From contig DATGJN010000058.1 in the NCBI GenBank assembly GCA_035295165.1, forward strand, positions 1-41,885: a DNA stretch of 41,885 nt, in the 5' to 3' direction. A program made the position numbers and the translations under genes. Source of the DNA: a bacterium (GTDB lineage Bacteria > Sysuimicrobiota > Sysuimicrobiia > Sysuimicrobiales > Segetimicrobiaceae). Under the pieces are notes generated by a model. That model was not told the origin of the DNA. It did not search any database and saw only the letters and a program-made list of their open reading frames with translations. Positions 19,556-31,486 of the stretch are shown piece by piece (position 1 is the stretch's first letter; each line of letters begins with the position of its first letter).

Positions 19556-20366
19556 GGCCGACGGTTCAAGCGAGCCAGCGTCACGTCGACACGGGTGCCG
19601 CCACCCCATTCGGTAGGCGGTACTCGTTGTCATGTATGCTCTGGCTAGTTGCCAAAGTGGGCGCCTTGCGCTTCGAGCGCGGCAGAGCACGACGGCTTCG
19701 CGCATCGCATGCAGCGCCGGCCTCAGTGGGATGGCAACCGTCGCGATAGTTGTTGGTCACTGACGGGTGGGGGAGCCGCGCTCGATGGTCAGAGGAGCGA
19801 CGTCGGCGGGTCCCGGAGGCCCGAGCGAGTCGACGCCGCGTAGCGTTTTACCATGCGGGAGGAGCAGTTGCCAACGCGTCGGCTCGGCAGCGAGGGCAGC
19901 CTCGCAGCTGGTTCTGGGATGAGCCTCTGCTTTTCCCGGCCCTCTGGCGAGCCGAATCGCCGGAACCCTTAATTTCATTGGACTGGTGGAGACGACGGGA
20001 TTCGAACCCGTGGCCCCCTGCTTGCAAAGCAGGTGCCTTAACCCCCTCCTGCAGCCCTTGCAAGTCAAGCGTTCTAGAAGGGTGAGCATCTGCTTTGACG
20101 CGCCATGTGACCACGATCCACCACCTCCTTGCTTTGGGGTTATCGGTATTGGCCAGGCACATAGAACTCTTCCGGCGCATCTGGGGCCTTCAGCGTCACC
20201 TCACACCGTCTGCCTCAGCATGCTCTTAGGCGGGCGCCCCGGGTTCTGCTTTTTGGCCCACCTCGCCTCCTACTCGACGAGCGCCTACACATCGCGAGGA
20301 CCCCCATCGACGGTGTGCAGTGAACTCCAGCGCTGGGCGACGGATACTCGGTCGCTTGGCCGGAGA
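19556..20366. other. Gene-poor stretch carrying a tRNA scar
   Basis: Apart from the tRNA-Ala fragment at 19984-20036 I see no supportable gene. Open frames here on both strands are rich in Arg, Ser and Pro, lack ribosome sites, and one simply translates the tRNA piece (giving the familiar false GHGFESRRLHQ peptide). Confidence 0.5.
19984..20036 (-). pseudogene. 3' fragment of tRNA-Ala(UGC), probable att site
   Basis: On the minus strand the sequence is a perfect 3' part of tRNA-Ala. It has the anticodon arm CCTGC-TTTGCAA-GCAGG (stem halves at 20029-20033 and 20017-20021, anticodon UGC), a variable loop, a T-arm containing GGTTCGAATCCC, and the 3' acceptor strand ending CTCCACCA at 19984. The 5' side is not a tRNA: no D-arm, and no GGAGACG to pair with the acceptor. 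Such fragments, from the anticodon loop to the 3' end, are what integrating elements leave at one attachment site. No intact tRNA-Ala is present in the window. Confidence 0.7.
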
Positions 20367-28781: not shown

Positions 28782-28869
28782 GCCGAGACGCTCGACCCGC
28801 GCCCGGGATCACGTGACAAATGCGAGCTTCTTGGGGATAATAGAGGTTGGTAGCCGCGTAAGGCACAGC

Positions 28870-29000
28870 GGTATGCCGAATCCTCGGCGTTGCCGGGGAG
28901 CGGGGGACCCAGGTTCTTGGGGCGTAGCCTGTGTGTGCACAGGCGGGGCAGTCTCTCGGCCCGAGCCCGTCAGCTAACCCCGTAGGCAACGAGAGAAGGC
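28870..29000 (+). ncRNA. c-di-AMP riboswitch (ydaO/yuaA type)
   Basis: The aptamer is recognisable from its conserved blocks: TGCCGAATCC (28874-28883), GAGCGGGGGACCCAGG (28899 onward), TTGGGGCGTAGCC, and CCGAGCCCGTCAGCTAACC (28961-28979) with CGTAGGCAACGAGAGA after it. Stems can be drawn: P1 TGCC/GGCA (28874-28877 with 28985-28988), a hairpin CCTCGGC-GTT-GCCGGGG (28882-28898), and GCCTGTG-TGTG-CACAGGC (28927-28944). This matches the ydaO RNA class that senses cyclic di-AMP. It lies about 110 bases upstream of a trehalose-6-phosphate synthase/phosphatase gene with a terminator between them, so ligand binding should lower otsAB expression. Confidence 0.9.
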
Positions 29001-29014
29001 CGACCGGGCCGTGG

Positions 29015-29050
29015 ACCACCCGGAGACCTTCTCCGGGTGGTTCTGTTTTG
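29015..29050 (+). terminator. Riboswitch expression-platform terminator
   Basis: CCACCCGGAG (29016-29025), loop ACCTT, CTCCGGGTGG (29031-29040), extended by an A-T pair, then TTCTGTTTTG: a strong intrinsic terminator 24 bases after the aptamer and 67 bases before the otsAB start. This is the usual arrangement for a transcriptional OFF switch of the ydaO class. Confidence 0.85.
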
Positions 29051-29107
29051 TGCATGCGCGGCCACGCCCCCGGTCCTGGGCAACTCTCGGGTGTGGAGGT
29101 GTACATG

Positions 29108-31486
29108 ATGGCGATCGAACAAACGCGCCTGCAGCGGCTGGATGACATTCTGAACGGCCGCGAACTGGTGATCGTCAGCAACCGCGAGCCGTACACGCAT
29201 CGGACCGGGCCGGGCGGACCCATCGTGGAGCGGCCGGTCGGTGGCCTCGTGGCTGCGTTGGATCCGGTCATGCAGGTGACGTCGGGGACGTGGATCGCGT
29301 GGGGAGACGGGGACGCCGATTTTGACGTCACCGACGCGCACGCCCGCATTCGAGTTCCGGACGATCATCCCCGGTACACGCTCAAACGGATCGCGCTCTC
29401 GAGGCAGGAAGTCGACGGCTACTACTATGGCTATGCGAACCAGGTGCTGTGGCCGTTGTGCCACACGGTGCTCGATCAGATCCGCATCCGCGCCCGGTAC
29501 TGGGACACATACCAGGCGGTCAACCAGCGCTTTGCGAAGGCCGTCGCCGCCGAGGCGCCCGGCGGCGCGATCGTGTGGCTGCACGATTATCATCTGGCGA
29601 CGTGCCCGCGCGTGCTCCGGCGGCTTCGTCCGGACCTCTTCCTCATGCAGTTCTGGCACGTCCCGTGGCCGGCCTGGGACGTGTTTCGCGTCTGCCCGGA
29701 TCGCGTGGAGCTGCTCGACGGCCTGCTGGCAAACGATCTGTTGACGTTCCAGCACGAACGTCACGCGGAGCACTTCCTGGAGTGCGCGCAGCGGGACCTC
29801 GGCGCCCGCATCATCGGACGGACTGTGGAGTACGCTGGGCGGCGCACGCGCGTTGAAGCGTTCCCGATCAGCGTGGACGTTCCCGCATTGGACGAGGTGG
29901 CCCGTTCGTCCCAGACCGACCGGTGGGTGGACGGCTTGAGCCGGCTCCTCGGCCTCGATGGACGGCGGGCGATCCTGAGCGTCGACCGGCTCGACTACAC
30001 GAAAGGAGTGCTCAAGCGGCTGCGGGCGATCGATCAACTGTTGACGCGGCACCCCGAGTACCGGTCGCGCGTCGTGTTCATTCAAAAGATGGCCGCCAGC
30101 CGGGGACAGATCAAAGTGTACCGCGACCTGCGGGTCAAAGTCGAAGAGCGGATCGAGCGTCTCAACGCCGCGTACGGGACGGGCGACTGGCTTCCGGTCA
30201 TTGCCCTGCCCGATCCACTCCCTCCGGCGGGCATGGCAGCGCTGTACCGGTTGGCGGATGTCTGTGTCGTCAGCGCGGTTCAGGACGGGATGAACCTTGT
30301 GGCCAAAGAGTTCGTCGCCTGTCAGGTGAGCGAGCCGGGGGCCCTGCTGCTCAGCGAGTTCACCGGTGCACACGACGAACTGATGGGCGCCGTGTCGATC
30401 AATCCGTACGATGCCGGAGGCTGCGCCGCGGCGATCGCCCGCGCGCTTGAGATGCCCGCGGAGGAACGGCGGCAGCGCATGGACCACCTCCGCGGTCACC
30501 TCATCGCGCACGACGTGTACCACTGGATGGGCAAACATCTGGAGGCGGCGGCTCGTCTGATCGACGCGGGCAGGTTGGTTCGGCCGAAGGCCGAGACCGT
30601 GACCGCGGTCGGGCGCGCGGCCGCATCCAACGGCCGCCCGCTCGCGCTGTTCCTGGACTTCGACGGCACGCTCGTGCCGTTTGACGAGGATCCTACACGC
30701 GTGCGTCTGCTCGAGAGCACGCGGGCGACGCTCACGCGGCTTGCGGCGCGTCCTCACGCGCTTGTGTCCATCGTCAGCGGGCGCTCGGTCGAGGATTTGC
30801 GCGACCGCATCGGCCTCGACAACATCGTGTACGCGGGGAACTACGGCCTCGAGATCTCGGGACGTGGGCGCTCATGGGTGCAGCCGGAGGCCGAGCGGGC
30901 CCGCGCGGCGCTCGAGGCGTGCGGCCGACGGTTGGAGCGTCGGCTGCGCGTGATTCCTGGCGCGTGGCTCCAGGACAAAGGGTTGACGCTCACCGTGCAC
31001 TACCGCCACACGCCGAACGCGTTCATCGAACGAGTCCGCGATGCGGTGTTCGAGGAAAGCGGACAGGCACCCGCAGGACACATCGCTGTGCACCTCGGCA
31101 CGTACGCGTTTGAGCTCCGACCGGACGTGTCGTGGAACAAAGGGTCCGCGGTGCGCAGGATATTGACCGAGACGTTTGGCGACGTGTGGTCAACTCAGGT
31201 CCATCCCATCTTCATTGGAGATGACCTGGCTGACGAGGATGTGTTTGTTGCCCTCGCGGAGCCCGCCGTCACCGTCAAAGTGGGGCACCAGCCTCCGCAG
31301 ACGGCGGCGCGGTATCGCGTGGCCGGGGTCGACGACGTCCATCGGTTGCTCTCGGTGCTGGAGATGGCGCCTGGTGTGGGAAACGGAAACGGAAACGGGC
31401 GGCGGAACGGGATCGCAGATCTGCGCGAGGACGTCAGCCGCGGCGCGCGCCCCTTCGACGCTCGATTTGCTAAGGCCTCAAACTAA
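29108..31486 (+). CDS. otsAB: Fused trehalose-6-phosphate synthase/phosphatase (OtsA-OtsB)
   Basis: 792-aa bifunctional enzyme making trehalose from UDP- (or GDP-)glucose and glucose-6-phosphate. The second of two adjacent ATGs (29108) is seven bases from GGAGGT. The N-terminal GT20 domain has LVIVSNREP, RPVGGLVAAL, WLHDYHL (about 158-163), SVDRLDYTKG (about 292-300) and DGMNLVAKEF (about 392), so donor and acceptor residues look intact. The C-terminal HAD phosphatase starts near 510 with DFDGTLVPF (D517) and continues with IVSGRS, YAGNYGLEI and GDDLADEDVF (about 704). A tail encoded partly by three GGAAAC repeats (31379-31396) ends the protein. A glucosylglycerol-type product cannot be excluded. 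It is controlled by the c-di-AMP riboswitch just upstream. Confidence 0.92.
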   Translation: MAIEQTRLQRLDDILNGRELVIVSNREPYTHRTGPGGPIVERPVGGLVAALDPVMQVTSGTWIAWGDGDADFDVTDAHARIRVPDDHPRYTLKRIALSRQEVDGYYYGYANQVLWPLCHTVLDQIRIRARYWDTYQAVNQRFAKAVAAEAPGGAIVWLHDYHLATCPRVLRRLRPDLFLMQFWHVPWPAWDVFRVCPDRVELLDGLLANDLLTFQHERHAEHFLECAQRDLGARIIGRTVEYAGRRTRVEAFPISVDVPALDEVARSSQTDRWVDGLSRLLGLDGRRAILSVDRLDYTKGVLKRLRAIDQLLTRHPEYRSRVVFIQKMAASRGQIKVYRDLRVKVEERIERLNAAYGTGDWLPVIALPDPLPPAGMAALYRLADVCVVSAVQDGMNLVAKEFVACQVSEPGALLLSEFTGAHDELMGAVSINPYDAGGCAAAIARALEMPAEERRQRMDHLRGHLIAHDVYHWMGKHLEAAARLIDAGRLVRPKAETVTAVGRAAASNGRPLALFLDFDGTLVPFDEDPTRVRLLESTRATLTRLAARPHALVSIVSGRSVEDLRDRIGLDNIVYAGNYGLEISGRGRSWVQPEAERARAALEACGRRLERRLRVIPGAWLQDKGLTLTVHYRHTPNAFIERVRDAVFEESGQAPAGHIAVHLGTYAFELRPDVSWNKGSAVRRILTETFGDVWSTQVHPIFIGDDLADEDVFVALAEPAVTVKVGHQPPQTAARYRVAGVDDVHRLLSVLEMAPGVGNGNGNGRRNGIADLREDVSRGARPFDARFAKASN
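31379..31396 (+). repeat. Three tandem GGAAAC hexamers
   Basis: An in-frame (GGAAAC)3 tract encoding Gly-Asn dipeptides in the flexible C-terminal tail of OtsAB. It could vary in copy number between strains. Confidence 0.7.

Follow-up and report, generated by a model that had tools for sequence, protein, structure and literature searches.

A predicted c-di-AMP riboswitch upstream of a fused trehalose-6-phosphate synthase/phosphatase gene, conserved in an uncultured bacterial phylum

Cyclic di-AMP is best known as a limiter of potassium and osmolyte uptake, and the locus described here raises the question of whether its control also reaches the making of a compatible solute. A sequence-only reading of the window (the whole 41,885-nucleotide stretch of DNA analysed) had placed a ydaO-class aptamer, an intrinsic terminator and a complete otsA-otsB fusion in direct series at 28870-31486, a span that proved correct to within 6 bases, and had proposed that c-di-AMP would act there as a direct brake on compatible-solute production. 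Our computational analysis identified the aptamer, the terminator, a set of competing helices, the gene, a conserved association between aptamer and gene, and a CdaA gene in the same genome. The features of the locus are as follows.

28813-28841, forward strand: promoter-like site GTGACA-17-GATAAT, 10 of 12 consensus matches
28864-29003, forward strand: c-di-AMP (ydaO/yuaA) riboswitch aptamer, RF00379 covariance-model match
28952-28958, forward strand: aptamer loop TCTCTCG, 5' half of the pseudoknot, exact complement of tail CGAGAGA 28990-28996
28990-28999, forward strand: switching tail CGAGAGAAGG, whose partner is the aptamer loop (bound) or the terminator arm (unbound)
29004-29023, forward strand: inner antiterminator helix, CCGGG 29004-29008 with CCCGG 29019-29023, from a constrained fold
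29013-29043, forward strand: intrinsic terminator, 14-bp stem with loop CCT, then TGTTTTGT
29027-29033, forward strand: CCTTCTC, terminator loop and 3' arm, antiterminator partner of GAGAAGG 28993-28999
29044-29051, forward strand: U-rich tract of the terminator
29095-29099, forward strand: ribosome-binding site GGAGG, from the sequence
29105-31486, forward strand: otsA-otsB fusion, predicted bifunctional trehalose-6-phosphate synthase/phosphatase, 793 aa, from domain and family matches

The proposed aptamer withstood the Rfam search that had been suggested as its check: RF00379 matches 28864-29003 over its full length (model 1-134 of 134) with 89.6 bits, where the gathering score is 38, and an E value of 7.9e-20. 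A scan of the whole 4.79-Mb assembly gave no second match. The core motifs of the aptamer are intact and normal for the class, its tail pseudoknot is present, and an expression platform follows it in the 5' leader; the terminator of that platform was likewise recovered as a 14-bp stem followed by TGTTTTGT. We considered GCGUAG at the GUGAAU positions of the aptamer as a binding-site change and rejected it, because similar variants are common in RF00379. The promoter-like site upstream (1 found versus 0.1 in shuffles) puts the expected transcription start near 28848, and most relatives, though not all, have a site with 8-10 matches out of 12 ahead of the aptamer. The locus forms a compact unit in which a single promoter, aptamer and terminator precede a single bifunctional gene.

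The gene itself likely begins at ATG 29105, which sits 5 nt past the GGAGG at 29095-29099; the program-listed open reading frame 28931-31486 was rejected as its extent because its start falls within the aptamer. That the fusion is complete, as proposed, is borne out by a glycosyltransferase family 20 domain (GT20, PF00982, residues 20-481) followed by a Trehalose_PPase domain (PF02358, residues 516-739), and by a score of 647.6 bits against NCBIfam NF011071 (bifunctional T6P synthase/phosphatase), above the cut-off of 634. An alignment with solved T6P synthases spans the OtsA half from one end to the other and shows the motifs R-L-D-Y-x-K-G and D-G-M-N-L-V conserved, and the HAD motif DFDGT is present in the translation. 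Together these features support trehalose-6-phosphate synthase/phosphatase as the predicted activity. Haloarchaeal bifunctional OtsA-OtsB proteins (NF011071) have the same domain order and length and share 37-49% identity with the fusion, which, unlike them, has a c-di-AMP riboswitch upstream. The OtsA-OtsB fusions returned by a genome scan (L024-L081) were archaeal, mostly haloarchaeal, except for two MAGs of the same genus, hinting at an old gene transfer, although the scan patterns may favour archaeal fusions.

Structurally, the leaders present a competition for the aptamer tail between the pseudoknot and an antiterminator, with the terminator as a third structure. In the window, 28952-28958 pairs with 28990-28996 in the pseudoknot, and GAGAAGG at 28993-28999 pairs with CCTTCTC at 29027-29033 in the antiterminator; native pairing beats partners swapped among genomes in both cases (p 0.006 and p 0.0025, respectively, neither corrected for relatedness). 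Changes on both sides preserve the antiterminator, which reads GAGAAGG:CCTTCTC here, GAGACG:CGTCTC in G005, and GAGAGC:GCTCTC in G021, G033 and G040, and a helix of 5-9 bp is possible in 18 of 18 non-redundant terminator-bearing leaders. Two of these terminators (G017 and G020b) were missed by automatic detection, also in the swap tests, and were found by motif. The inner helix at 29004-29023 occupies the 5' arm of the terminator, and an inner helix sequestering that arm is present in most relatives' leaders. The aptamer was not recovered by minimum-energy folding of the whole leader, since nearest-neighbour methods have no means of handling pseudoknots; the switch was therefore examined on the expression platform alone and by partner swapping. 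There the terminator folds at -35.2 versus -21.9 kcal/mol for the antiterminator, and the unconstrained fold favours the terminator; the choice between them must therefore be kinetic, made during transcription. Since the tail held by the pseudoknot is the antiterminator strand, ligand binding predicts termination, that is, an OFF switch.

The ligand could be supplied by the host, whose genome encodes one DAC-domain protein of CdaA type (with the CdaA N-terminal domain), directly followed by a YbbR/CdaR-like gene; we take the host to make c-di-AMP on the presence of this synthase gene, not on detection of the nucleotide. TreS (907.6 bits) and TreY (897.4 bits) are encoded on another contig of the genome than otsAB, the RF00379 scan of the whole assembly placed no aptamer at either, and a search of the assembly for TreT found none. 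Consequently, c-di-AMP would brake the OtsAB route alone and not all trehalose synthesis. The proposal of a direct brake on compatible-solute production is thus supported for the OtsAB route, where sequence and phylum-wide conservation agree with the predicted OFF logic, and not for TreS and TreY, which lie outside this control.

Across 43 genomes of the window's GTDB phylum, all belonging to one order, 20 aptamers were found in 17 genomes and counted as 19 non-redundant ones, because the leader regions of G040 and G027 are identical. An otsAB unit lies downstream of 16 of the 19: in 12 directly (G000, 001, 002, 003, 005, 006, 017, 020, 026, 037, 039 and 041) and in four within larger operons, namely brkB-otsAB in G021 and G040, treT-brkB-otsAB in G033 and treT-mscS-otsAB in G023. 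The remaining three precede a CBM48/AMPK1_CBM protein (G017), an ABC transporter (G020) and a G8-domain protein (G041). By genome, 16 have both aptamer and OtsA, one the aptamer alone, 12 OtsA alone and 14 neither (Fisher p 0.0012), and in the window's own family of 12 genomes the six with OtsA are exactly the six with the aptamer (p 0.002). No aptamer was detectable in the 12 genomes with OtsA alone, and a search for weak aptamers around aptamer-less OtsA genes matched only an aptamer already counted. Evolutionarily, the aptamer is clustered on a tree of 29 OtsA-OtsB proteins (5 changes versus 9.8 with shuffled labels): it is missing from the three most distant proteins and scattered over the remaining clade, a pattern that requires at least 4-5 gains or losses and fits an old association followed by several losses.

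Some of these genomes carry further features worth recording. The G023 operon (G023:C22, L095) is a putative unit uniting two trehalose-making enzymes with a mechanosensitive channel. The G017 aptamer of the non-otsAB group (G017:C285, L083) is the second in its genome, upstream of a gene for a small glycogen-binding protein (AMPK1_CBM/CBM48), and the second aptamer of G020 (G020:C35, L092) precedes a solute-binding ABC transporter and then an MGH1-like, mannosylglycerate-hydrolase-like glycoside hydrolase, an arrangement suggesting that c-di-AMP governs both uptake and degradation of a solute resembling mannosylglycerate or glucosylglycerate. A second otsAB copy in the G037 genome (G037:C174, L097) has no aptamer. 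The identical leader regions of G027:C62 and G040:C126, whose assigned genera differ, likely reflect contamination or misbinning.

Beyond the phylum, a varied set of about 340 bacterial genomes yielded 66 aptamers in 39 genomes, and none of the 66 lies near an OtsA gene, though 12 of the 39 aptamer-bearing genomes have one; the otsAB association is thus 16 of 19 within the phylum versus 0 of 66 near otsA elsewhere (Fisher 1e-14). BLAST searches of the DNA downstream of 40 of these aptamers gave no OtsA, OtsB or TreT match. A Pfam search covering most of the first genes returned chiefly potassium transporters (KdpA, KUP and TrkH), permeases for amino acids, and hydrolases of the M23 or NlpC/P60 type, the targets expected of the RF00379 class.

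From its class membership and anatomy, we infer that the RNA binds c-di-AMP and terminates transcription in response, and the locus is very probably a transcription-terminating OFF switch on trehalose synthesis, the direction of the response and its effect in vivo being read from the same evidence. Under this model, otsAB transcription would start near 28848. At high c-di-AMP the aptamer would fold, the pseudoknot 28952-28958 : 28990-28996 would hold the purine tail, no antiterminator could form, and the terminator at 29013-29051 would leave otsAB untranscribed. Once c-di-AMP drops, as expected at low potassium or turgor, the tail would pair with 29027-29033, the inner helix would take the 5' arm of the terminator, and polymerase would read through, allowing the OtsA-OtsB fusion to make trehalose-6-phosphate and then trehalose.

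Alternatively, the switch may respond to c-di-AMP as proposed while the fused enzyme makes another glucoside, such as glucosylglycerol. GT20 takes in glucosylglycerol-phosphate synthase too, the fusion matches TIGR02398 at 304 bits (below cut-off), and its acceptor-side motif reads FWHVPWPAWD versus FxHxPFP in solved OtsA. We nevertheless consider a product other than trehalose unlikely, given that both the NF011071 match, at 647.6 bits, and the T6PP match exceed their cut-offs and that TreT, a dedicated trehalose synthase family, occurs within the riboswitch operons of G023 and G033. More improbable still is an aptamer of opposite sign, with ligand turning the gene on, or one acting mainly on translation. 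Such an arrangement is brought to mind by G037, whose leader has no terminator and whose aptamer tail falls where the ribosome would bind; yet binding would turn otsAB off there as well, the tail captured by the pseudoknot elsewhere is the strand that the antiterminator needs, and known switches of the class are OFF (PMC6488665 and PMC10117811).

To a decayed or ligand-altered aptamer that sits beside otsAB through descent alone, without regulating it, we give the least credence. The repeated gains or losses that the tree demands would suit it, but the core motifs survive in every one, or almost every one, of the 19 leaders, terminator and antiterminator co-vary across families that are highly different elsewhere, and the leader persists while operon content varies. 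Regulation of otsAB by a terminating OFF switch accounts for the locus best, and at the level of the lineage we consider it probable that the c-di-AMP riboswitch has shifted in this uncultured phylum from mainly governing solute import to mainly governing trehalose synthesis. The regulon would be ancestral and lineage-wide, comprising otsAB and, in some genomes, treT, mscS and brkB, and through it c-di-AMP would repress the making of a compatible solute at the RNA level.

How does this compare with known systems? The locus resembles the ydaO/yuaA class (RF00379) in aptamer sequence and structure, tail pseudoknot, terminator-type platform and the osmotic theme of its target, and departs from it in that the usual targets serve potassium or osmolyte import or are cell-wall hydrolases, whereas here the target is compatible-solute synthesis. 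In the kdpFABC switch of Bacillus thuringiensis, c-di-AMP binding to an RNA of this class terminates transcription (PMC6488665); both loci have a single aptamer, an intrinsic terminator and c-di-AMP-promoted termination (predicted here), but the B. thuringiensis switch controls potassium import and is laboratory-tested, whereas ours is known from sequence. The ydaO-like switches of Streptomyces rpfA and cell-wall hydrolase genes (PMC10117811) share the aptamer class and the OFF logic through premature termination and have peptidoglycan hydrolases as targets; the consulted passages of that review contain no link between riboswitch and trehalose. A 2013 regulon survey gives transporters and cell-wall enzymes as ydaO-yuaA targets (PMC3766115). 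Our searches of the open full-text literature turned up incidental co-mentions only, and no description of trehalose synthesis under a c-di-AMP riboswitch, although the gene lists of Block 2010 and Nelson 2013 may hold one. The riboswitch class, the OFF logic and bifunctional OtsAB are already known, and the interest lies in the conserved, lineage-specific change of target, in which one riboswitch class is reused on different genes toward the same physiological end. If correct, this would extend c-di-AMP control to compatible-solute production in a lineage that has seen little laboratory study.

Elsewhere in the window, on the reverse strand, a tRNA-Ala(TGC)-like gene at 19984-20058 (Rfam 36 bits, ARAGORN call) has apparently lost its D arm and is probably a degraded copy.
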